Part shown: positions 5,383 through 20,820 of the stretch, piece after piece | Layout: each line of letters begins with the position of its first letter | How positions within the stretch are numbered: the stretch's first letter is position 1 | IMG/VR virus record: IMGVR_UViG_3300032282_001804 | Span: 1 to 21,449 of that record | DNA: 21,449 bases | Strand: one strand, 5' to 3' | Source of the DNA: a virus | Notes under the pieces: model-generated | Databases searched by the model: none | What the model saw: the letters and a program-made list of their open reading frames with translations, nothing else | What the model was told of the DNA's origin: nothing | Translations under genes and position numbers: made by a program

Positions 5383-7367
5383 TGGGTGTAACATCAGTTC
5401 AAGGTTTTAAGTTTAAGTTAGTAGCCAATGGTGAAATTTTAGATTTATTCCAGGATGAAGAAATTAAATTATCAGATAATATCACAGGTCTTTTTGATTT
5501 GGGAATATTACCTGCTGATTTCACTCGTCAAATAACTTTACCAGGTTCAAAGAAGAATAATCATTTTTTTGAATTTGTTTATGATATAAGTGTAGAAAAT
5601 CCTTATACATTCTCAACTAATCAAAAAGTTCAATGTTATTTGGATTTTGATGGTATTTATTTATCTGATGGATATTTACAACTTAATAAAGTAAATGTTT
5701 ATCAAAATAAGTTTATAGATAGTTACGAAGTTACAATATATGGTGGATTAGCTTCATTTGGTAGAAGTTTGAAAAGAACATTTTTAACCGATTTAACGGG
5801 CTCTCTATCTCAATACAATCATACTGCTTCATTTGAAAATATATCGGCAAGTTGGGGTGGTAATTTATTTAATGGAACTATTGTTTATCCATTAGCAGAA
5901 TACGGACAACAAATACAATATCAAACCAATAATACACAATTTGGTATATCATCAACAGATGGTGCATTATGTGTAGCAGATTGGAAACCTGCAATCAAAT
6001 TGAAGACAGTTTGGGATGCATGTTTTTCTACTTTTGGATATACATACACATCTTCATTTTGGAATGAAAGTTGGACAGATAGCATTTATATGATGTGTAA
6101 TAATAAATTACAATATCCTGTTTTTGATAATATTGATTTGGAAACTTATGGTAAATTTAGAATAACTCCACAATCAGGAAGTGGAACAAATATAACAATG
6201 TCACCAATTACAGATACATTTTTGAATTGGTATAATATAGAAAGTAATCCGGGTGGTAACATAGATAGTCAATTACAATATACATTAGGATTTGATACTA
6301 AAATAAGAGGTGAATTAAACTTAAACTTTAGTATTAGTGGGAGTGGTGTATCAACTGCAGTTCCTTTATTTGATTTAGTATTATACAATACTACAACAAC
6401 TGCAACATATTCAACTCCATTAACTAACTATAACAATTATATGTATCAAACACAGGCATATAATAATGGGCCGACAAGACCACAAACATTTGAATTATTA
6501 ACTGAATTTAATACTGCACAAATAATACCTGCAGGAACATATGAATTTTTCTTAAGATATACTCCAGATGGAACAGGGACAGTGACGGTTGTATTAAATC
6601 CAAATAGTAATAATAAATCATATCTATCGGTTAATAAAATAAATCAAGGTGCTGATGGTAGGATTATGGAAATACCACAGAATATGCCATTTGGAACTGC
6701 TGGAATTAAACTTATAGATTTTATTACAGCTGTTCAAAAAAAATTTAATTTAGTAATATATCCAAATAAAACTAAACTAAATGAGTTCATAGTAGAACCA
6801 TTTAATCGTTGGTATAAAGCAGGACAAATAAAATCATTTGATAGATACATTAATTTAGATAGTAAGATTGAAGTAACACCTGCAAATAACTTAGCAGTTC
6901 AAAACTTAAACTTTGGTGATACATTAGATGGTGATTATATTTCACAACAATTTGCAAAAGGTGCAGGTAGAGAATTTGGTAAAGCATATTATATTGATAC
7001 TGACAACTTCTTCTCACAAGGAACATACGAAGTAAAAACAACATTTGCATCTTCTCCATTAGTTTATGTTAGTGGAACAGGTGTATCAGGTAGTTCATTA
7101 CCACCTTCACCTACACAATATTACGCAGGAACTCCATCATTTACTTATAGTAGTGATTTTACACAGGCGTGTATATCTACAATTTCATTTGATGTATATA
7201 CGGCTGATGGATTGTTTACAACTGGTGAAACTATGTATAGAGATGCATATGGAACTAATCCGGTAGTTGGATTAAGATATTTCAAAAATCCAACAACTGA
7301 TGAAGTAACTAACATAAACCAATTTACAGGACAAATAGGATTAGGACAAGGATATTATTGTCCATAA
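5382..7367 (+). CDS. Large tail protein, hub or tail-tip like
   Basis: At 661 residues this is the largest protein in the window. It begins with a domain containing 'LGILPADFTRQITLPGSKKN' (about 40-59), a pattern seen at the start of long tail-tip proteins of Bacteroidota phages. Middle regions are Ser/Thr/Asn-rich beta sequence. The later part has 'AVQKKFNLVIYPNKTKLNEF' (about 448-467) and 'SKIEVTPANNLAVQNLNFGD', resembling the substructure of tail hub or baseplate proteins. The start overlaps the upstream stop as TAATG. The next gene looks like the C-terminal portion of the same family, so the full hub may be split in two polypeptides. Confidence 0.65.
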   Translation: MGVTSVQGFKFKLVANGEILDLFQDEEIKLSDNITGLFDLGILPADFTRQITLPGSKKNNHFFEFVYDISVENPYTFSTNQKVQCYLDFDGIYLSDGYLQLNKVNVYQNKFIDSYEVTIYGGLASFGRSLKRTFLTDLTGSLSQYNHTASFENISASWGGNLFNGTIVYPLAEYGQQIQYQTNNTQFGISSTDGALCVADWKPAIKLKTVWDACFSTFGYTYTSSFWNESWTDSIYMMCNNKLQYPVFDNIDLETYGKFRITPQSGSGTNITMSPITDTFLNWYNIESNPGGNIDSQLQYTLGFDTKIRGELNLNFSISGSGVSTAVPLFDLVLYNTTTTATYSTPLTNYNNYMYQTQAYNNGPTRPQTFELLTEFNTAQIIPAGTYEFFLRYTPDGTGTVTVVLNPNSNNKSYLSVNKINQGADGRIMEIPQNMPFGTAGIKLIDFITAVQKKFNLVIYPNKTKLNEFIVEPFNRWYKAGQIKSFDRYINLDSKIEVTPANNLAVQNLNFGDTLDGDYISQQFAKGAGREFGKAYYIDTDNFFSQGTYEVKTTFASSPLVYVSGTGVSGSSLPPSPTQYYAGTPSFTYSSDFTQACISTISFDVYTADGLFTTGETMYRDAYGTNPVVGLRYFKNPTTDEVTNINQFTGQIGLGQGYYCP

Positions 7368-12935: not shown

Positions 12936-13050
12936 ACTAACAAATCATAAAACTTCATTTGGTAAAAGAAAAACAGGTCCTGAAAGTGGAACTAAATCGT
13001 TTAATAAACATACACCAAAGAAAAAAACTTATAGAGGACAAGGAAGATAG
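12919..13050 (+). CDS. 43-residue very basic protein ending YRGQGR
   Basis: The ORF (MAKASKLTNHKTSFGKRKTG ... TYRGQGR) has many Lys/Arg and no acidic stretch. Small basic proteins with a Gln-Gly-Arg terminus are frequent at the end of late operons in Bacteroidota phages, which supports coding. It overlaps the upstream ORF by 17 bases. It may bind nucleic acid or be a minor virion protein; no fold is evident. The TAG stop is followed directly by a hairpin and then a strong terminator, marking the end of the structural transcription unit. Confidence 0.6.
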   Translation: MAKASKLTNHKTSFGKRKTGPESGTKSFNKHTPKKKTYRGQGR

Positions 13051-13077
13051 GTGAGTAACCTATTGAGTAACCAATAT

Positions 13078-13107
13078 AACCCACCTTAAAAAAGTGGGTT
13101 TTTTTAT
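13078..13107 (+). terminator. Strong Rho-independent terminator ending the late operon
   Basis: AACCCAC (13078-13084) pairs with GTGGGTT (13094-13100), and a T run to 13105 follows. A second perfect hairpin, ATAGGT (13047-13052) with ACCTAT (13058-13063) around a 5-base loop, overlaps the preceding stop codon and may add to termination or protect the mRNA end. Confidence 0.88.
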
Positions 13108-13108
13108 T

Positions 13109-13208
13109 TTATCAATGAGTTACATATATACATATTTTTATATATATAAAACACTCAAAAATACCCTAAAAATCGTAACTAATTCATTATCAACGAGTTA
13201 TGCATATA
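13109..13208 (+). repeat. Direct repeat pair TTATCAAyGAGTTA(nn)CATATA
   Basis: Copy 1 lies near 13109-13128 and copy 2 near 13187-13208. They differ by one transition (T/C) and by two inserted bases (TG) in copy 2, and are about 79 bases apart. An inverted GTAACT lies between them, so the first copy can also pair with the middle element. Related GAGTAACC copies lie at 13053-13060 and 13065-13072. This spacing suggests protein binding sites. Confidence 0.5.
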
Positions 13209-13279
13209 GGATTTTTTAATGTATAAATGGTTGAAAATGAGGTATTTAGGTGTTTTTTTGAAAATAGTTCCTAAATTAT

Positions 13280-13311
13280 TTGGTAAATCCAAAAAATAGT
13301 CGTATATTGTA
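13280..13311 (+). promoter_or_regulatory. Promoter P1 (Bacteroidota type)
   Basis: TTTG at 13280-13283 is followed by exactly 20 nt ending in TCG and then TATATTGT (13304-13311). This fits the Bacteroidota primary promoter pattern (TTTG at -33, TAnnTTTG at -7). The start would fall near 13317. A dyad ATTGTA-gta-TACAAT covers 13307-13321, and a terminator-like hairpin follows at once. Confidence 0.65.
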
Positions 13312-13322
13312 GTATACAATTG

Positions 13323-13347
13323 GGGAAGATAATATTATTCCCTTTTT
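13323..13347 (+). terminator. Small terminator-like hairpin just after P1
   Basis: GGGAA (13323-13327) pairs with TTCCC (13338-13342) around a 10-base AT loop, then five T (13343-13347). It lies only about 6 bases after the predicted start of P1, so P1 transcripts would be about 30 nt if it works. It may equally stop weak read-through from upstream. Confidence 0.5.
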
Positions 13348-13361
13348 ATATATACATACGA

Positions 13362-13415
13362 AACACTAAATATCCAATAAATATTTGGTAATATCAAAAA
13401 TGTTTCGTATCTTTA
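13362..13415 (+). promoter_or_regulatory. Promoter P2 with upstream conserved box
   Basis: AACACTAAAT (13362-13371) precedes TATTTGGTAATAT (13382-13394). TTTG at 13384-13387 is 20 nt from TATCTTTA (13408-13415). P3 has the same two boxes in the same spacing. The predicted start near 13421 is about 19 nt before the ATG at 13440, so P2 should drive the small-gene cluster. ATACGAAACA (13356-13365) is a perfect inverse of TGTTTCGTAT (13401-13410), overlapping the -7 region. Confidence 0.78.
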
Positions 13416-13439
13416 ATTTATAATAAACAAACAAAGTAG

Positions 13440-13658
13440 ATGGTAAACTACTATAAAAACACAATTATTATGAACAAAAAACAAATTGGTTATTTAGAAA
13501 GTATGATGGAAAATAGTAGATTTAATCTCAAACGATTAAACGACCAAAAAGTAAGTGGGGTAAAATTTACCGCACAGGATAAAAGAGATGTAGAATATTA
13601 CTTCACTAAACTACAATTAGTAAATGAGATATTCAAAACATTACCAACATTAAAATAA
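13440..13658 (+). CDS. Hypothetical early protein, first gene after P2
   Basis: The 72-residue protein is not recognised. It is helical and charged: 'MNKKQIGYLESMMENSRFNL' from residue 11, with a C-terminal 'DVEYYFTKLQLVNEIFKTLP'. The ATG at 13440 lies 25 bases after the P2 -7 box, matching the 26 bases between the P3 box and its gene, so I keep this start. An in-frame ATG at 13470 (62 residues) sits in the ATTATG context used by neighbours and is a real alternative. First genes of early phage clusters often act on host functions; here that is inference. Confidence 0.7.
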   Translation: MVNYYKNTIIMNKKQIGYLESMMENSRFNLKRLNDQKVSGVKFTAQDKRDVEYYFTKLQLVNEIFKTLPTLK

Positions 13659-13663
13659 AAGTT

Positions 13664-13870
13664 ATGAAAAAGAAAATGATTACAAAAAATAAAATTATGA
13701 ATGTGTATTTTTTAACACAAAAAGAAATAGGTATTAAATCCCATTTTGGTAGAATTATAGATTGGTTTGAATTAGAAGGGTATAATATCACACACAATTC
13801 AGTTAGTAACATATACAAATATATGGAACAACGCAGACAAATATCAGAATTATTAAACAACACAAAGTAA
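13664..13870 (+). CDS. Hypothetical small protein
   Basis: The 68-residue basic protein (MKKKMITKNKIMNVYFLTQK at the start) contains 'EIGIKSHFGRIIDWFELEGY', a helix-turn-like stretch followed by 'NITHNSVSNIYKYMEQRRQI'. The last part could be the recognition helix of a winged or simple helix-turn-helix DNA-binding domain, but the match is weak. It lies five bases after the previous gene and starts in the AAAAGTTATG context repeated in this cluster. A regulatory role is possible, not shown. Confidence 0.65.
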   Translation: MKKKMITKNKIMNVYFLTQKEIGIKSHFGRIIDWFELEGYNITHNSVSNIYKYMEQRRQISELLNNTK

Positions 13871-13923
13871 TTTATAAACAAAACCTCGATAGTCCCGTAG
13901 GTAACAAACGGAACAAAAACAAA

Positions 13924-14589
13924 ATGGTAACAAATAATTTAAGTGAAACATTACAACAAATGATTGTAACGAAACAACAAAGTATCAAAGATGCAAAAAC
14001 TCAAACTATTTCCAAAGTGAATAAGTTATGTAGTTCAAAGGCTATGTTAGATGTATTAAAGAAAGGTGGATTAGATGTAAGGATTATAGACACCGAACGT
14101 GATGAACAATTGTATAGACAATTTTGGATATTCGATGTGCATGGTATTGATTACACATTTAATATATCAGAAAATTGTGGTAAGTTACAAAGAGTGTATA
14201 CTAACTACGGATATAATAGAACTACGGATGAATTGGTTGAATTAACATATAGTGTAAAATCAACCGACTTTGAAAGATTAAGTATCTATTATGATATATT
14301 AGATGTAGTTAATGGTATTCGTAATTCAAAACCTGTTCAACAATTAATGGAATTGTTTAATGAGTTCGATACTTTCAAACACTCAACTCTAATTGAGATA
14401 GATGCATTCAAAAGACAAATCGAAAGTATCAATGAAGATACATTATCAAGTTTACTTTATAGAGCATTGAATGGTAATGGTATTGATTACGAATACAATG
14501 ACCAAACTGATTGTAATCTCGTCCAAATTTACTTAGATGAATTGGATGAGGATGGTGATAGAATTACTGATTGGGTTAGAGTAATGTAA
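13924..14589 (+). CDS. Hypothetical 221-residue protein
   Basis: I do not recognise this protein. The N-terminal 45 residues are a polar helix (TLQQMIVTKQQSIKDAKTQT). A mixed region with 'QLYRQFWIFDVHGIDYTFNI' follows, then a helical middle and an acidic C-terminus ('LVQIYLDELDEDGDRITDWV'). Cysteines are few and there is no membrane segment. The ATG follows ACAAAAACAAA, an A-rich leader also found before the genes at 342 and 17986, which suggests efficient translation. It is the largest gene of the P2 cluster. The 53-base gap before it (13871-13923) shows no promoter or terminator. Confidence 0.78.
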   Translation: MVTNNLSETLQQMIVTKQQSIKDAKTQTISKVNKLCSSKAMLDVLKKGGLDVRIIDTERDEQLYRQFWIFDVHGIDYTFNISENCGKLQRVYTNYGYNRTTDELVELTYSVKSTDFERLSIYYDILDVVNGIRNSKPVQQLMELFNEFDTFKHSTLIEIDAFKRQIESINEDTLSSLLYRALNGNGIDYEYNDQTDCNLVQIYLDELDEDGDRITDWVRVM

Positions 14590-14601
14590 ACTATAAAGAG
14601 A

Positions 14602-14946
14602 ATGGGATGGATTGATTTCAAAGATGAGGATGGTGATAAGTGGGGTTCATCTATTTGTAAAATATATGTAGGGCCTAAAGTGAAAGGTTCTCAAAGATAT
14701 GTTTGTGATTTGTATAAGTGGGATGATGGTATTAAATTATACAAAGAAGAAGTAGAGGTAACAAAGAAACAAATTACCGATTGGATTACCAACGCATTTG
14801 AATACAATACCGATGGTTCTATCGAAAGGAATAATGAACAACAATTGGATAATTTTGAGAGAAGTATGAAACACTTAAACTCACCAGGTAATGAAAAATC
14901 ATTAAAAGTATATAATGATTACATTCAATCACTAAATAAAGACTAA
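14602..14946 (+). CDS. Hypothetical acidic protein
   Basis: The 114-residue protein begins 'GWIDFKDEDGDKWGSSICKI' and has a middle 'LYKEEVEVTKKQITDWITNA' helix. It ends in a polar helix. It is acidic and soluble, with two cysteines, and no family is evident. It follows the 221-residue gene by 12 bases and is closed by a strong terminator (14953-14980), so it is the last gene of the first part of the P2 unit. Its Asp/Glu-rich start recalls small acidic phage proteins that mimic DNA, but the composition is not extreme enough to claim that. Confidence 0.72.
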   Translation: MGWIDFKDEDGDKWGSSICKIYVGPKVKGSQRYVCDLYKWDDGIKLYKEEVEVTKKQITDWITNAFEYNTDGSIERNNEQQLDNFERSMKHLNSPGNEKSLKVYNDYIQSLNKD

Positions 14947-14952
14947 TACAAT

Positions 14953-14980
14953 AGGGGAGTTGAAATACACTCCCCTTTTT
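14953..14980 (+). terminator. Rho-independent terminator
   Basis: AGGGGAGT (14953-14960) is perfectly complementary to ACTCCCCT (14969-14976) around an 8-base loop, and T continues to 14980. It is the strongest uninterrupted stem of this type in the window. No new promoter of the P1-P4 type was found between it and 15002, so genes after it depend on read-through or on a promoter I cannot see. Confidence 0.9.
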
Positions 14981-15001
14981 ACAAATTAAAAACAATAAGT
15001 T

Positions 15002-15247
15002 ATGAAAAATTATCCTCCAAAAGTTATAGAGGTAAATGATGAAAAGTATATCAGCAGAAATTACTTACGAAATTTATTAGTAATCTATCGAACTAGGTTA
15101 CGAAATAAGTTAACACTATTAGATGAACAATTCCAATCAACTGATATGGATAAACAATCCTATATCACAGAAAGAACTAGAATTGAAACCGAAATGAATA
15201 TGAATGGATTGTATAATAAATGGGTAAGAAAAATTGAAAATAGATAA
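15002..15247 (+). CDS. Hypothetical helical protein
   Basis: The 81-residue protein is basic and helical ('ISRNYLRNLLVIYRTRLRNK' around 17-36, then a charged helix). The N-terminal 'YPPKVIEVNDEKYISRNYLR' contains a short beta-like part before the helices. It is not recognised. It begins in the AAGTTATG context and lies three bases before the next gene. It sits immediately downstream of a strong terminator, which raises the question of its promoter. Confidence 0.7.
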   Translation: MKNYPPKVIEVNDEKYISRNYLRNLLVIYRTRLRNKLTLLDEQFQSTDMDKQSYITERTRIETEMNMNGLYNKWVRKIENR

Positions 15248-15250
15248 TAT

Positions 15251-15583
15251 ATGGAAAATAGAATTAAAGAGTTGGAACAACGAATAATCGATTTAGAGAG
15301 GAGATTTTACCCTATTGAAAACATTATGTATGAAATGTATGAAAAGGAAATTGAGACCCGTAAATCAAAGGATATTGAGAATAATGGGTATTCTTACAAA
15401 GTGAAGTTCGTAGTTGATACTGACAAAGGTTGTAAGGATATAATATTTGAAGTGAAAGGTTATACCGAAAAACAGGCACTATACATTGGTAATAGAGATG
15501 TAGTATATCCAAATATGAGTAGATTAAAAGATAACGGAACTATAAAATGGTTCAAAACAATTAGTAAAGAAATTATAAAATAA
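15251..15583 (+). CDS. Hypothetical protein with N-terminal coiled coil
   Basis: The 110-residue protein starts with a heptad-rich helix (IKELEQRIIDLERRFYPIEN, 5-24), which should form a coiled coil. The second half ('YSYKVKFVVDTDKGCKDIIF' near 47-66, then 'VKGYTEKQALYIGNRD') looks like a small alpha/beta domain. The combination suggests an oligomerising unit joined to a binding domain. No family is recognised. It is co-transcribed with both neighbours (3 and 5 base gaps). Confidence 0.7.
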   Translation: MENRIKELEQRIIDLERRFYPIENIMYEMYEKEIETRKSKDIENNGYSYKVKFVVDTDKGCKDIIFEVKGYTEKQALYIGNRDVVYPNMSRLKDNGTIKWFKTISKEIIK

Positions 15584-15588
15584 AAGTT

Positions 15589-15771
15589 ATGGTAACATTA
15601 AAAATGAGTGATGAGGATAGTAAATTATTATTAAAACCTCTAATGGATTATGTTGGTAAAAATAGACCAATGAGATATGGTGGACAATTTACAAATAACC
15701 CACCTATAACCGAAGAGGAATGGCTAAGGTTGACGGAATTAATAGATAGATTATATCACAATAAAAAATAA
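15589..15771 (+). CDS. Hypothetical 60-residue protein
   Basis: The protein (MVTLKMSDEDSKLLLKPLMD, then an Arg/Gly/Pro-rich middle and a helical end 'EEEWLRLTELIDRLYHNKK') is not recognised. Its start follows TAAAAGTTATG, identical to the context of the gene at 13664. It lies three bases before the following gene. The two-helix layout with a flexible middle is compatible with a small binding protein. Confidence 0.65.
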   Translation: MVTLKMSDEDSKLLLKPLMDYVGKNRPMRYGGQFTNNPPITEEEWLRLTELIDRLYHNKK

Positions 15772-15774
15772 ATT

Positions 15775-15993
15775 ATGATTAAAGAAAAAGAATATCAAAC
15801 ACATCCATGTTGGTGTGGTGAACAACAAATATGTGATTGTATAAGTGAACCAAATGATAATGACTACGGGCCATTTTGGTGTAAATATCCTGATGAAAAT
15901 GGTAATAAAATACCAATGACTAAACTAAAAGGAAGTAGAGTATTAACAAAAAAAGAGATGGAACAATATAACAAAGTGAAGTTACCATTCTAA
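15775..15993 (+). CDS. Small cysteine-rich, probable metal-binding protein
   Basis: The 72-residue protein has 'HPCWCGEQQICDC' (10-22), giving C-x-C-x5-C-x-C with a nearby His, and one further Cys in 'FWCKYPDENGNKIP' (about 34-47). This spacing suits a single zinc site. The C-terminal half is basic and polar (LTKKEMEQYNKVKLP). It is the last gene before a 255-base non-coding region. Phage proteins of this kind often bind nucleic acid or a host enzyme, but nothing more specific is visible. Confidence 0.7.
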   Translation: MIKEKEYQTHPCWCGEQQICDCISEPNDNDYGPFWCKYPDENGNKIPMTKLKGSRVLTKKEMEQYNKVKLPF

Positions 15994-16169
15994 AAACAAA
16001 AACCCCTAACGAGATGGCACAAACGCTAGGGGTATATAAGGATAGTTCACTCTATATAAATTAGTAAAATTGATAGAGCATTATTTAAGAACTATACTCT
16101 TTAACACCAATTACAAAAAAAGTTTTATAAAAGTAGTATTAAAAAAATAAAAAAATATACTTATATATG
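15994..16169 (+). other. Non-coding region with stacked stem-loops
   Basis: No gene is visible. ACCCCTA (16002-16008) pairs with TAGGGGT (16027-16033), with a further CG/CG step inside. No T run follows on this strand, while the complementary strand has one, so polarity is unclear. Next, ATAGTTC (16042-16048) pairs with GAACTAT (16089-16095) and encloses CTCTAT (16050-16055) with ATAGAG (16073-16078). The rest is A/T-rich sequence leading to promoter P3. A structured RNA or an operator cluster would explain the nesting. Confidence 0.45.
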
Positions 16170-16223
16170 AACACTAAATAACGGAATAATATTTGGTAAT
16201 ATGAAAAACATTCCGTATATTAG
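16170..16223 (+). promoter_or_regulatory. Promoter P3 with upstream conserved box
   Basis: AACACTAAAT (16170-16179) and TATTTGGTAATAT (16190-16202) repeat the P2 arrangement with the same 20-base offset. TTTG (16192-16195) is 20 nt from TATATTAG (16216-16223). The predicted start near 16229 is 20 nt before the HNH gene. ACGGAAT (16181-16187) is the inverse of ATTCCGT (16210-16216), which touches the -7 box. Confidence 0.78.
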
Positions 16224-16248
16224 TATATAAACAAAAAATTAGAAACAA

Positions 16249-16602
16249 ATGGCACAGATTAAAGAAATCAATGGTTTCCCTAATTACTTTATTGATACTG
16301 ATGGTATCGTATATTGTAACAAACCCTCATTAAGATTGGGAACATTTAGTGGTGATATTAGACCAATCACCTTATCAAAAAAGAAAACAGGTTATTTATA
16401 CGCAAACATTTATTGGGGTAAAACAAAAGCTCATAGAAGTTCATTAAGAGTTCATAGAGTAGTGTATCAAACATTCGTAGGTGATATACCTGATGGTTGG
16501 GTAATTGACCATATCAACGGAGATAAATCAGATAATCGTTTAGAGAACTTACAATGTATTACTCAATCTGAAAATCTATTAAAATATAATCAAACTAAAT
16601 AA
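16249..16602 (+). CDS. HNH homing-type endonuclease with NUMOD4-like N-terminus
   Basis: The 117-residue protein would cut DNA at one or a few sites and spread its own gene. Residues 5-35 (KEINGFPNYFIDTDGIVYCN) match NUMOD4-like DNA-binding repeats. The HNH core lies at 66-105: RVHRVVYQTF, then 'DGWVIDHINGDKSDNRLENL', giving His69, His88, Asn90 and Asn100 as likely metal or active-site positions. It is a compact, apparently intact member of the HNH_3 class. It is the first gene after P3, one base before the replication gene. Such endonucleases commonly interrupt phage replication regions, and no split gene is visible around this one. Confidence 0.88.
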   Translation: MAQIKEINGFPNYFIDTDGIVYCNKPSLRLGTFSGDIRPITLSKKKTGYLYANIYWGKTKAHRSSLRVHRVVYQTFVGDIPDGWVIDHINGDKSDNRLENLQCITQSENLLKYNQTK

Positions 16603-16603
16603 G

Positions 16604-17248
16604 ATGGCAAAAAAGAAAAAAGGTAAAGACCCGGCATTCTTAATGTATTCAGGAGATTTCTTAGCTGGAACTTACACAATGAATTATGAACAAAAGGGAA
16701 AGTATATTACCCTGATGTGTATTCATCATCAAAAAGGTTTCTTAACTGAAATAGATTTACATTCTGTTTTATCTGATACTGATATAGTAGTAGCAAGTAA
16801 ATTCTATAAAGCTGATAATGGTAATTACTATAATCAGAAAATGATAGATGTAATTGAAGAAAGAAAACTTTTTACTGAAAGCAGAAGAGCTAATGGTAAT
16901 AAAGGTGGTAGACCTAAAACCATAAATAAACCTAATGGTTATCATATGGATAACCTAAATGAAACCTACACTAAACCTACCAATAACCATACTGGAGATG
17001 AAGATGAAGATGAAAATCAAGATAGAAAATTAGAGATTAAAAATGAAAGTAAAAGTGGAAATGAGTATGGAGTTTATTATAAGCTATATAAACAATTAAC
17101 TAATTATGAAACTGCAGATAATGTATATGAGGATATATACTTTGATATACAGGATGATATTGGTTGGGATAAATTCTATTCAGTATTAAACTTAACTGAT
17201 AAGGAAATAAAAGAAATGGATAATGTGATAACAATTAAATTAAAATAA
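16604..17248 (+). CDS. DUF1376 (YdaU-like) replication-associated protein
   Basis: The 214-residue protein opens with a Lys-rich stretch and 'DPAFLMYSGDFLAGTYTMNY' (9-28), followed by 'EQKGKYITLMCIHHQKGFLT'. 'FYKADNGNYYNQKMIDVIEE' and the RRANGNKGGRPK linker follow. This is the layout of DUF1376 proteins, which resemble primosomal and replication-initiation proteins and lie in phage replication modules. The C-terminal half is acidic and low-complexity (DEDEDENQDR near 132-141), then a helical end. No helicase, primase or polymerase gene is in the window, so its partners may be elsewhere or host-encoded. It lies between two endonuclease genes with 1 and 3 base gaps. Confidence 0.75.
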   Translation: MAKKKKGKDPAFLMYSGDFLAGTYTMNYEQKGKYITLMCIHHQKGFLTEIDLHSVLSDTDIVVASKFYKADNGNYYNQKMIDVIEERKLFTESRRANGNKGGRPKTINKPNGYHMDNLNETYTKPTNNHTGDEDEDENQDRKLEIKNESKSGNEYGVYYKLYKQLTNYETADNVYEDIYFDIQDDIGWDKFYSVLNLTDKEIKEMDNVITIKLK

Positions 17249-17251
17249 AGC

Positions 17252-17701
17252 ATGGCAAAGTTAAAAACAAAATGGTCGGTGTATACCATAGTAAATACAC
17301 AGAATGAAATTGAATACATTGGTTGCACTAGCAATCCTAAAAGAAGATGGTATAATCATACCTATTGGTATCAGGCTTCAGGTATTGGTAAATTCTATGG
17401 TAGAACTGATGTTCGTATGGAAATCATTAAAGAATTTGATAATCGTAGAGATGGTTGGGATTATGAAGCAGAATTAAAATTACAGCATGGTTTTAAGTTA
17501 ACTGAAGAGATTTCAACTAATATGGAAAAGGTATCAGTTAAAGCAATATGTGCATTAACAGGAAAAGAATTAGGTATCTATCGTTCTATTATGGAAGCAA
17601 GTAGAAAACTTAATGTAGGTTTCAAATCTATATCAGCAAACATAAAAGGTAGAAGTAAAGTAGTAGATAGAAAATATACCTTTGTTAGTTTGGAAAATTA
17701 A
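17252..17701 (+). CDS. GIY-YIG homing-type endonuclease with NUMOD-like C-terminus
   Basis: The 149-residue protein has a GIY-YIG nuclease domain at 8-80: VYT (10-12) stands for the GIY half and YIG (22-24) is intact. Arg31/Arg32 and His36 follow in 'SNPKRRWYNH', and Glu73 in 'DYEAELKLQH' is the likely metal-binding Glu. Residues 96-147 ('VKAICALTGKELGIYRSIME' onward, ending KYTFVSL) form a NUMOD/IENR1-like DNA-recognition module. This combination is typical of freestanding homing endonucleases. The gene's final codons carry the -33 element of promoter P4, so its 3' end also regulates the next cluster. Confidence 0.88.
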   Translation: MAKLKTKWSVYTIVNTQNEIEYIGCTSNPKRRWYNHTYWYQASGIGKFYGRTDVRMEIIKEFDNRRDGWDYEAELKLQHGFKLTEEISTNMEKVSVKAICALTGKELGIYRSIMEASRKLNVGFKSISANIKGRSKVVDRKYTFVSLEN

Positions 17702-17720
17702 AATATTATTCGTATCTTAA
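17689..17720 (+). promoter_or_regulatory. Promoter P4, overlapping the end of the GIY-YIG gene
   Basis: TTTG at 17689-17692 is exactly 20 nt from TATCTTAA (17713-17720), with TCG just before the -7 box as in P1 and P2. The predicted start near 17726 is about 32 nt before the ATG at 17758. The AACACTAAAT upstream box of P2 and P3 is absent. Confidence 0.68.
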
Positions 17721-17757
17721 ATAAAATGATATTTATATATTCAAAGGCACAATACAA

Positions 17758-17970
17758 ATGAAATCATTACTCAAACATATTCAGTTAGGAACTTATTTAC
17801 AAACCATTTTGTTTATTATCACAATCGGCCAAAGTGAACATATTGCTTTGTTTATTGCAAAGCGTTTCTTTGGCCGAAATGATTGTGGTTGTTGCAGAAG
17901 AAAGGAGATAATGAATAGGTGGACTAATCCTGACTATGATGGTAAATGTAATCAAATAAATTTATTATAA
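17758..17970 (+). CDS. Small CGCC-motif protein
   Basis: The 70-residue protein has a hydrophobic N-terminal part ('LGTYLQTILFIITIGQSEHI', 10-29) and then 'FGRNDCGCCRRKEIMNRWTN' with a final DGKCNQ. Similar small proteins with a Cys-Gly-Cys cluster followed by Arg/Lys and 'N' occur in Bacteroidota phages, function unknown to me. The hydrophobic stretch could be a membrane-associated helix, so a lysis or membrane role is possible but not shown. Its coding sequence contains a strong nested hairpin at 17825-17877. It is the first gene after promoter P4. Confidence 0.72.
   Translation: MKSLLKHIQLGTYLQTILFIITIGQSEHIALFIAKRFFGRNDCGCCRRKEIMNRWTNPDYDGKCNQINLL
17825..17877 (+). other. Nested GC-rich hairpin inside a coding sequence
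   Basis: CGGCCAAAG (17826-17834) is perfectly complementary to CTTTGGCCG (17868-17876), and T17825 pairs with A17877. Inside, GCTTTG (17845-17850) pairs with CAAAGC (17858-17863) around a 7-base loop. GGCC is rare in this AT-rich genome, so the outer stem stands out. There is no T run, so it is not a normal terminator. It covers codons for residues about 23-40 of the CGCC-motif protein. Confidence 0.7.
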
Positions 17971-17985
17971 ACAAAAACAAAACAG

Positions 17986-18264
17986 ATGGAACAAACAACA
18001 ACAATCAAATCAACTTTAGATGGAACACCAGTAGTTGACCAACAAGCACTTTACTTTATTGATTTTAGTAAGTTAAACAGAATTGAAGATTTAATTTTAA
18101 TCCTAGCGGCAGTAGGATTTACATTCTCTCCTAATCATCCTCATTGGAATTTACTACAACAATTTATGAATTTAGGACAACCAGTTTATCCTAATAAGGC
18201 ACAACAACAAATGCCGGAACTTAAACTACCTAAATTAAACACTTTGAATAAAGATGGAGAATAA
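17986..18264 (+). CDS. Hypothetical protein
   Basis: The 92-residue protein starts with a Thr-rich segment (MEQTTTIKSTLDGTPVVDQQ) and continues with 'LYFIDFSKLNRIEDLILILA' (22-41), a probable amphipathic or hydrophobic helix, then 'HPHWNLLQQF' and a proline-rich basic C-terminus. I do not recognise a family. It begins after ACAAAAACAAAACAG, the A-rich leader found before other genes. It overlaps the next gene by 11 bases, so the two are translated together. Confidence 0.7.
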   Translation: MEQTTTIKSTLDGTPVVDQQALYFIDFSKLNRIEDLILILAAVGFTFSPNHPHWNLLQQFMNLGQPVYPNKAQQQMPELKLPKLNTLNKDGE

Positions 18265-18490
18265 CATTTACACAAACGAAGAGTTCCTTAATTTGGTTAA
18301 AACAATGGAAGGAATACAATCTTATATTCCTGAAAACTTAGCAGGATATGTATGGAACAATTACAAACATATTAGCGGTAGTAATGAGAACACTCCGTGT
18401 ATGTGTTCATCTGCAAGTGGATTATGGATTAAAGCAACAAATGTAATAAGAGATTATATTAAAACCAATTCGGACAAGTATAATGCTTAA
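18254..18490 (+). CDS. Hypothetical protein with CMCSS motif
   Basis: The 78-residue protein contains 'NTPCMCSSASGLWIKATNVI' (47-66), a motif I have seen in small Bacteroidota phage proteins of unknown function. The two close cysteines could bind a metal. The N-terminal half is helical and acidic. Its start overlaps the upstream gene by 11 bases and its end overlaps the sigma-like gene by 8, showing a tightly coupled operon. A link to transcription through the following sigma-like gene is plausible but unproven. Confidence 0.68.
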   Translation: MENNIYTNEEFLNLVKTMEGIQSYIPENLAGYVWNNYKHISGSNENTPCMCSSASGLWIKATNVIRDYIKTNSDKYNA

Positions 18491-19040
18491 CGAAGTAACT
18501 AGTAGTATACAGCAGCAATGTGATAGAAGACTAGAAACTCTATACAAAGAAAGCCATACATGGTTACTAAAAGCAAGTTATAACATATGTAAATCATTTG
18601 AAGAGAGTGAAGAACTCACATCTGATTTATATGTTTACTTAGCAAAGAAATGTAGACCAACAATATGGTGGGGTGATAGTTACAATCTTAATTATTGTCA
18701 AAAGTTTATTAGACATAGGTGGTATAATAAAGCAAGTAAATTAAAAAGATATCAATATACTTCTAATAATACCCTAATGGATGATACTGATAATGATTAT
18801 GATGAACAAAGAGATTTGGATATAATGCAGGCATACGAAGATGTGATGCAAGAGTTAAAGAATTTACAAGTTACTAAACTATGGCCGGCAGCAAGATTAT
18901 ACGAATTATATTGGTGTAGTGATGATACACTCAATGAAGTAGCAAAGAAGATAGGTATATCAAAATCAACTACATTCCTTGCAATCAAAAAGATAAGAAC
19001 ACATATGAGAGGAATTATAGAAAACCCATTCAATGATTGA
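18483..19040 (+). CDS. RNA polymerase sigma-70-like factor
   Basis: The 185-residue protein has the layout of a short alternative sigma factor. The N-terminal part holds 'FEESEELTSDLYVYLAKKCR' (39-58) and 'FIRHRWYNKASKLKRY', like sigma region 2. A linker rich in Asp/Asn follows (99-112). At the C-terminus, 'DDTLNEVAKKIGISKSTTFL' with 'AIKKIRTHMR' (147-176) looks like a region 4 helix-turn-helix. Such proteins are common in Bacteroidota phages near terminase genes. It could redirect host polymerase to late genes, but no match of its target to a DNA site is shown. Starts and ends overlap neighbours by 8 bases. Confidence 0.7.
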   Translation: MLNEVTSSIQQQCDRRLETLYKESHTWLLKASYNICKSFEESEELTSDLYVYLAKKCRPTIWWGDSYNLNYCQKFIRHRWYNKASKLKRYQYTSNNTLMDDTDNDYDEQRDLDIMQAYEDVMQELKNLQVTKLWPAARLYELYWCSDDTLNEVAKKIGISKSTTFLAIKKIRTHMRGIIENPFND

Positions 19041-19373: not shown

Positions 19374-19682
19374 ATGCCGTTTGAGAAAGGCCATAAGTTA
19401 GCAAAGGGAAGACCATTAGGAGCAGTTAATCGTTCTACGGAGATGATGAGGTTATCAGTAGCGAGAGCAACTAATAAGGTATTAGATAACTTGCCGGCAA
19501 TAATGGAAGATATGATGAAGACAGACCCTAAAGGTGCAGTTGATTTAGCGATTAAGTTATTAGAATTTAATTTACCTAAACAAAGTAGGGTTGAAATGAA
19601 AGCAGAGATTGAACAAAAGATACAACAAATAAACTTAAACATATTAGATGGAACTCAACATCAACACATCAAAGACTTATAG
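19374..19682 (+). CDS. Probable terminase small subunit
   Basis: The 102-residue protein starts 'PFEKGHKLAKGRPLGAVNRS', a basic segment like those of phage DNA-binding proteins of the DUF5681/terminase-small type. 'MMKTDPKGAVDLAIKLLEFN' (48-67) and a C-terminal helix follow. It would bind the packaging site and load DNA onto the large terminase. Support comes mainly from its position, with its end overlapping the large terminase gene by 35 bases, and from the helix-rich DNA-binding look. I did not find a clear winged-helix signature, so this is a likely rather than a certain call. Confidence 0.65.
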   Translation: MPFEKGHKLAKGRPLGAVNRSTEMMRLSVARATNKVLDNLPAIMEDMMKTDPKGAVDLAIKLLEFNLPKQSRVEMKAEIEQKIQQINLNILDGTQHQHIKDL

Positions 19683-20820
19683 AGATATTGATAAGAGTAG
19701 AAGAATATGTATACTGCAAGGTGGCACAAGAAGTTCTAAAAGTTACTCAGCATTACAATGGATATTAGTTCGTGCTTTAACTGAACCCAACATAGTAATT
19801 TCTATTGTGCGTAAATCGTTTCCATCAATGCGTGTTAGTATTATGAGAGATTGGCAAAGCATACTTAAAGAGTTAAACATATGGGATGAGAATAGTTGGT
19901 CTGCTACTGAACACATATACTCATTTGATAATGGAACAATGGTAGAGTTTATGTCAATTGATAGTTCAGAAAAAAGAAAAGGTAGTGCAAGAGATTATTT
20001 ATTTGTAGATGAGTGTAATGAGTTAAGTAGAGAAGATTGGTTTCAGTTATTCATTAGAACTCGCAAAAAATCTATTATAGCATATAACCCATCATTCGGA
20101 ACTAACCATTATATCTTTAATGAAATACAAACACACCCTGAAGCAGATTTATTTATCAGCACATTCAAAGACAATCCATTTTTAGAAAAGCAATTGGTTG
20201 AAGAGATTGAACGATTAAAAGAAATCAATCCTGAATATTATAAGATATACGGATTAGGATTACCTGGCAATAATGTAGGAACTATATTCTCTATTAACAT
20301 TGTAGATGAGATACCAGAAGAAGCAGAGTTTGTTGCATTCGGTATGGATTATGGATTTACAGTTGACCCTACCACATTAGTAGCAGTAGCAAAATTAGAT
20401 AGAGATATATACATTGATGAGTTGTTGTATAAGAAAGGAATGGTTACGCAAGATATAATAGCAGAATTAAAATCATTACAAATAGATAGAAATGAAATAT
20501 GGGGTGATAGTGCAGAACCGAGATTGATAGAAGAAATATATCGTAGTGGATTTAATATTAAGCCTGTTAAAAAGGGTAAGGATAGTGTAAGGTTAGGAAT
20601 AGATTTAATGCAACAATATAAACTAAATGTAACCAAGCGTTCTCTAAATACAATTAAAGAATTTGGTGAGTATATATGGATGGTTGATAAAAATGGTAAC
20701 TTTGAGAATATGCCAGTAGATTATTCAAACCATAGTATAGATGCAATTCGTTATGTTGTGCAAGAAAGATTAAACGCTAAAAAGATAAACGCAGGAAAAT
20801 ATTCAATTAGTATAAGATAA
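19648..20820 (+). CDS. Terminase large subunit (ATPase-nuclease)
   Basis: The 390-residue enzyme packages DNA into the prohead and cuts it. The ATPase half has Walker A GGTRSSKS (25-32), Walker B YLFVDE (117-122, Asp121 and Glu122) and an AYNPS motif (145-149), a coupling-like site. The nuclease half has candidate metal residues Asp234 (FGMDYGF), Asp287 (WGDSAEP) and Asp365 (HSIDAIRY), the RNase H-like arrangement of terminases. Length fits the short PBSX/Terminase_3 type. The start overlaps the small-subunit-like gene by 35 bases, suggesting translational coupling. Confidence 0.93.
   Translation: MELNINTSKTYRDIDKSRRICILQGGTRSSKSYSALQWILVRALTEPNIVISIVRKSFPSMRVSIMRDWQSILKELNIWDENSWSATEHIYSFDNGTMVEFMSIDSSEKRKGSARDYLFVDECNELSREDWFQLFIRTRKKSIIAYNPSFGTNHYIFNEIQTHPEADLFISTFKDNPFLEKQLVEEIERLKEINPEYYKIYGLGLPGNNVGTIFSINIVDEIPEEAEFVAFGMDYGFTVDPTTLVAVAKLDRDIYIDELLYKKGMVTQDIIAELKSLQIDRNEIWGDSAEPRLIEEIYRSGFNIKPVKKGKDSVRLGIDLMQQYKLNVTKRSLNTIKEFGEYIWMVDKNGNFENMPVDYSNHSIDAIRYVVQERLNAKKINAGKYSISIR

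Follow-up and report, generated by a model that had tools for sequence, protein, structure and literature searches.

Four sites with the frame of a Bacteroidota primary-sigma promoter in an uncultured phage: a probable sharpened, TG-less phage form

An uncultured virus carries four promoter-like sites, P1 to P4, that are most likely a sharpened, TG-less phage version of the promoter read by the primary sigma factor of Bacteroidota. The sites have an invariant spacing, are conserved across phages, and stand ahead of genes, and the same frame occurs in host chromosomes. We place the probability at roughly 0.7 that P1 to P4 serve the phage as promoters by recruiting host RNA polymerase together with the primary sigma factor, which is of the sigma-ABfr type. 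The window, i.e., the whole stretch of DNA that was analyzed, is the complete IMG/VR record IMGVR_UViG_3300032282_001804 (21,449 bases), which may be a fragment because its ends are linear.

RESULTS

Four sites of equal length in the window

The four sites, with scores from the matrix described below, are as follows.

13279 to 13308, plus strand: P1, TTTGG (13279 to 13283), N17, CG (13301 to 13302), −7 box TATATT (13303 to 13308); 32.6 bits
13384 to 13413, plus strand: P2, TTTGG, N17, CG (13406 to 13407), −7 box TATCTT (13408 to 13413); 37.3 bits
16192 to 16221, plus strand: P3, TTTGG, N17, CG (16214 to 16215), −7 box TATATT (16216 to 16221); 33.9 bits
17689 to 17718, plus strand: P4, TTTGG, N17, CG (17711 to 17712), −7 box TATCTT (17713 to 17718); 30.1 bits

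These sites are real. The pattern TTTGGN{14,20}CGTATnTT matched the window four times, on the plus strand only, versus 0.04 matches expected from shuffles, and none of 100 shuffles reached four; the comparison with shuffled sequence proposed in the initial annotation thus gave nothing similar to the window. All four matches were of equal length although the search left the gap free at 14 to 20 bases. A scoring matrix of 35 positions, trained on 95 sites from other phages with the window left out, gave P1 to P4 scores of 30.1 to 37.3 bits, versus 12.1 bits for the next best place in the window and 17.9 bits for the best of 100 shuffles. The −33 TTTG is present at all four sites, and the distance from TTTG to TATnTT is 20 bases in P1, P2, P3, and P4, just as the initial annotation had claimed. 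Its reading of TCG or CCG before the box also agrees with what is found (TCG at P1, P2, and P4; CCG at P3). The start positions that it gave are exact for P2 (13384), P3 (16192), and P4 (17689), but P1 starts at 13279 rather than 13280, and its proposed scan pattern, TTTGG-N17-YCG-TATNTT, is one base too long, the actual form being TTTGG-N16-YCG-TATnTT.

Gene context of P1 to P4

The features surrounding the sites are listed in order of position.

13078 to 13107, plus strand: stem-loop with T-run (CCCACC..GTGGG, TTTTTTT); the inverted-repeat search scored the repeat on the other strand
13440 to 15993, plus strand: cluster after P1/P2, small ORFs without assigned function
16249 to 17701, plus strand: cluster after P3, HNH_3 endonuclease, replication-like ORF, and GIY-YIG/NUMOD1 endonuclease
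17758 to 18490, plus strand: start of the cluster after P4, three small ORFs without assigned function
18483 to 19040, plus strand: sigma-like protein with sigma2/sigma4 layout (phrog_1740, E value of 9.6e−6), downstream of P4 and adjoining the terminase genes
19374 to 20820, plus strand: small ORF (weak terminase-small match), then large terminase, used to fetch relatives

Three copies had been described as lying directly upstream of gene clusters, and this is the case for P2 (ORF from 13440 or 13470), P3 (16249), and P4 (17758). P1 precedes P2 in tandem by 105 bases within one intergenic stretch, and the final codons of the GIY-YIG ORF overlap with the −33 part of P4. The stem-loop at 13078 to 13107 is a probable terminator that would close the upstream structural operon before P1. 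The replication-like ORF downstream of P3 has a weak primosomal match, while P4 is followed by small ORFs, the sigma-like gene, and the terminase genes. Positions 13000 to 18000 have no DNA-level match in named phages, and no Rfam family or tRNA was found in the window.

Other conserved elements lie near the sites. A 15-base inverted repeat (13351 to 13365 and 13401 to 13415, 87% complementary) brackets most of P2 but was rejected as a feature of the motif, since it is not seen at homologous sites; P3 has a shorter inverted repeat, CGGAAT/ATTCCG. A second conserved element with the core ATCAAYGAGTTAYR occurs at 13111 to 13124 and 13189 to 13202 (0.00 expected in shuffles) and also in loci L375, L393, L077, L081, L088, L192, L225, and L315. 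This core belongs to a palindrome of 25 bases, TAACTnnTTGATTATCAAyGAGTTA. In its strict form, the palindrome occurs in 73 viral stretches, and no copy was found in a sample of 118 Bacteroidota genomes. The palindrome element is intergenic in 46 of 51 distinct copies, and in several phages the core lies 32 to 100 bases upstream of the promoter motif. An invariant ATGATAYTTATATA stands just downstream of P4 (17728 to 17741) and at the homologous places after P4 in L007, L012, and L063. A similar ATACTTATATA is found upstream of P3 at 16157 and is overrepresented in the noncoding DNA of the group.

The motif in relatives and in unrelated phages

Relatives of the window's phage were collected as loci fetched solely through terminase or sigma homology and not by the pattern. 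In this set, TTTGG-Nk-TATnTT has 51 distinct sites at k = 20 versus 3 to 13 at other gaps, and the box is preceded by CG in 25 of the 51, versus 0 to 1 at other gaps. CG is absent from the other 26, some of which are likely coding, as is the one at 6912 in the window. Sites homologous to P3 were found in six relatives and sites homologous to P4 in three; in these alignments, TTTGG and CGTATMTT are invariant, whereas most spacer and flank positions vary. The count of intergenic versus coding hits that the initial annotation had suggested, made on whole stretches of records, gave a clear answer, with 79 of 92 distinct sites being intergenic where noncoding sequence is 10.7% (P = 1e−62). The median distance from the motif to the next mechanical start was 34 bases for these 92 sites.

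The motif extends well beyond this group. A degenerate 30-base pattern matched 11 other viral contigs, and a looser pattern had at least 120 matches in IMG/VR, whereas the genomes of bacteria and archaea, 257 billion bases in all, yielded 14 matching stretches. In parts of five large phages (380 kb), counted on whole stretches of records that had first been met through the pattern scan, TTTG-N20-TATnTT occurs 106 times versus 26 to 46 at other gaps and TTTG-N20-TAnnTTTG 42 times versus 0 to 13. Several large records contain 12 to 26 copies of the motif each, mostly on one strand, with few copies of the reversed pattern. Some of the motif-bearing large records have genes for a family-B DNA polymerase and for proteins resembling a tail sheath (identified by eye), and because of these genes, the large phages are not considered relatives of the window's phage. 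The promoter type is most likely common to unrelated siphophage-like and T4-like phages. On a large contig with T4-like genes (G030, comprising L310 to L315, 118 kb), one promoter copy lies just upstream of a GroEL gene (87380) and another just upstream of a TonB-receptor-like gene (83745).

Among eight named phages of Flavobacterium, Riemerella, Bacteroides, and Phocaeicola, the relaxed form showed no clear excess, so that these phages give no host reading. The sole similar-looking sites among them are two CCGTACATT sites in Bacteroides phage SJC01. A logo built from 300 sites is biased because the pattern was used to fetch many of its loci.

The same frame in Bacteroidota chromosomes

The published consensus for the primary sigma factor of Bacteroidota, sigma-ABfr, consists of a −33 TTTG and a −7 TAnnTTTG (PMC7366714; motifs SM1-3 of Flavobacterium in PMC9723704). 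In five Prevotella-group genomes, TTTGG-N17-CGTATMTT has 14 to 19 copies per genome versus 0 to 1 for the reversed pattern. The Prevotella copies examined precede ordinary genes (dtd-, carB-, and uvrD/pcrA-like, assigned by eye), and one chromosomal copy in another genome precedes an rpsT-like gene (also by eye). In 400 kb of Xylanibacter ruminicola, TTTG-Nk-TAnnTTTG has 27 sites at k = 20, 13 at k = 19, and about 3 at other gaps. The 20-base gap of P1 to P4 equals this Xylanibacter optimum of 20. In the phage sites, the spacer is biased toward T at about positions 9 to 11, A at about 13 to 17, and T at about 19 to 22, and the same T, A, T bias is seen at the 27 Xylanibacter sites. When 118 genomes from across the phylum were scanned for the N20 form with a complete box, many had more copies of it than of the control (e.g., 36 versus 2 and 35 versus 6). 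The strict CG form showed no clear excess over the reversed control among 296 sampled genomes of the phylum, and we therefore rejected the idea that it is a chromosomal promoter in general use across the phylum; it is enriched in Prevotella.

The Bacteroidota −33/−7 layout that the initial annotation had recognized is thus well supported by spacing, intergenic position, the short distance to start codons, and the frame shared with host genes. Its further proposal, that the extra G after TTTG and the CG before the box are a phage-specific refinement, stands in part. Each G is already preferred in chromosomal promoters (about 64% for the G after TTTG and about 64% for the G before the box at the 27 k = 20 sites of Xylanibacter/Prevotella) and is therefore not a phage invention. 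What is particular to the phages is that these preferences are near-invariant, in a class that spans many unrelated phages.

Loss of the terminal TG

The real difference from the host form, overlooked in the initial annotation, is the lost terminal TG. The −7 box is followed by GT at P1, TA at P2, AG at P3, and AA at P4, so that the full TAnnTTTG is present at none of the four, and in relatives of the window's phage, not one of the 29 TTTGG/CG sites has TG after TAnnTT. In contrast, nearly all chromosomal copies examined continue with TG to give TAnnTTTG. The large phages differ from one to the next: the box is followed by TG or TA in G046 and G054, but hardly ever by TG in G030, G048, and G037. 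Since TG-less members occur in both phage types, a trait of the hosts would fit better than a trait of a single lineage. Among the examined sites of 14 matches from a species-level genome collection, no genome with TG-less near-consensus copies before genes was found.

DISCUSSION

If the host primary sigma factor reads P1 to P4, TTTG(G) would serve as the −33 element, CGTATnTT would contain the −7 element, and the fixed 20-base gap would correspond to the host optimum. The base bias of the spacer may aid melting or bending. The phage would have sharpened positions that the host already prefers, namely, the G after TTTG and the CG before the box, and the group to which the window belongs would dispense with the terminal TG of TAnnTTTG. 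That the sites are active is inferred, as are the sigma factor that reads them, the start sites, and the timing; transcription would start about 5 to 8 bases past TATnTT, so that the transcripts of the clusters behind P1/P2, P3, and P4 would begin with short leaders.

The main rival as a reader of these sites is the phage's own sigma-like protein (18483 to 19037), which would then feed back on its own expression. Besides its sigma2/sigma4 layout and the phrog_1740 match, this ECF-like protein has a gene that is kept beside the terminase in relatives (53 ORFs among their loci), and its model (pLDDT of 84, pTM of 0.44) has ECF sigma factors as best Foldseek matches (6dv9_F, E value of 1.9e−3, probability of 1.00, TM-score of 0.36), the low TM-scores being due to a disordered linker that joins the two domains. 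A tblastn search of 50,697 records of named phages did not find it. CGTAT resembles ECF −10 boxes, the TG-less box departs from the host consensus, and most small-phage records contain motif and sigma gene together. However, the motif is frequent in large phages without a detectable homologue (14 sites in G029 and 12 in G030), at least one sigma-bearing record of near-complete length (G016, 34.8 kb) lacks it, and Prevotella chromosomes have the same frame ahead of ordinary genes. Because motif and gene thus appear to be uncoupled, each occurring without the other, we dropped this protein as the sole reader from first place and consider it an unlikely one; it could serve other, perhaps late, phage promoters. 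We also think it improbable that the TG-less promoters are a separate specificity, for which phages of several unrelated lineages would redirect or modify host polymerase, through a sigma-like protein of their own or an accessory factor that they share, to use CGTATATT without TG in place of the host TAnnTTTG. Were this so, phage transcription would have its own promoter class.

ECF-sigma promoters have an AAC-type −35 element. No such element was found at P1 to P4, which have TTTGGTAA at three sites and TTTGGAAA at P4. A conserved CGT box at −10 is the hallmark of the SM6 motif of Flavobacterium psychrophilum and has been attributed to ECF sigma factors (PMC9723704), and CGTAT is present at all four sites. 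A host ECF sigma of this kind is nevertheless a very unlikely reader, given that the copies in chromosomes stand ahead of ordinary genes with TAnnTTTG, the complete box of the primary sigma, and that a −33 TTTG with a 20-base gap belongs to the primary-sigma class. It is most improbable that P1 to P4 happen to look like promoters but instead bind a regulator, encoded by phage or host, or serve in packaging or replication. Such roles would suit the unusually high conservation, the strong strand bias, the partial dyad TTTGGTAATATCAAA, and the 15-base inverted repeat at P2, but the sites lie just before start codons, have a promoter-like gap optimum, and match host gene promoters, and the P2 repeat is not evident at the sites of relatives.

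A brief literature search found no such phage promoter motif, and promoters of environmental Bacteroidota phages seem little described. With the 30-base signature, likely promoters can be placed, with their strand, on uncultured phages of 20 to 400 kb, so that operons can be delineated from the sequence by itself. How much of the −7 element the unusual primary sigma factor of Bacteroidota requires is a question posed by the TG-less box, and copies of the motif are candidate strong promoters for use in tools for these bacteria.

Known systems provide three points of comparison. Like P1 to P4, sigma-ABfr promoters have TTTG, TAnnTT, a gap of 20, the spacer bias, and a position before genes; the phage sites differ in that the CG and the second G are near-invariant, in the absence of TG in the window and its phage relatives, and in their fixed gap, whereas the spacer in Bacteroides thetaiotaomicron is reported to vary in length. 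SM6 promoters share CGT in the −10 region with P1 to P4, but here CGT precedes a TAnnTT box with a −33 TTTG, and the chromosomal versions precede ordinary genes. The early promoters of coliphage T4 are a sharpened form of the host primary-sigma consensus present in several copies. P1 to P4 would resemble them in both sharpening and multiplicity, with a different sigma family as the reader.
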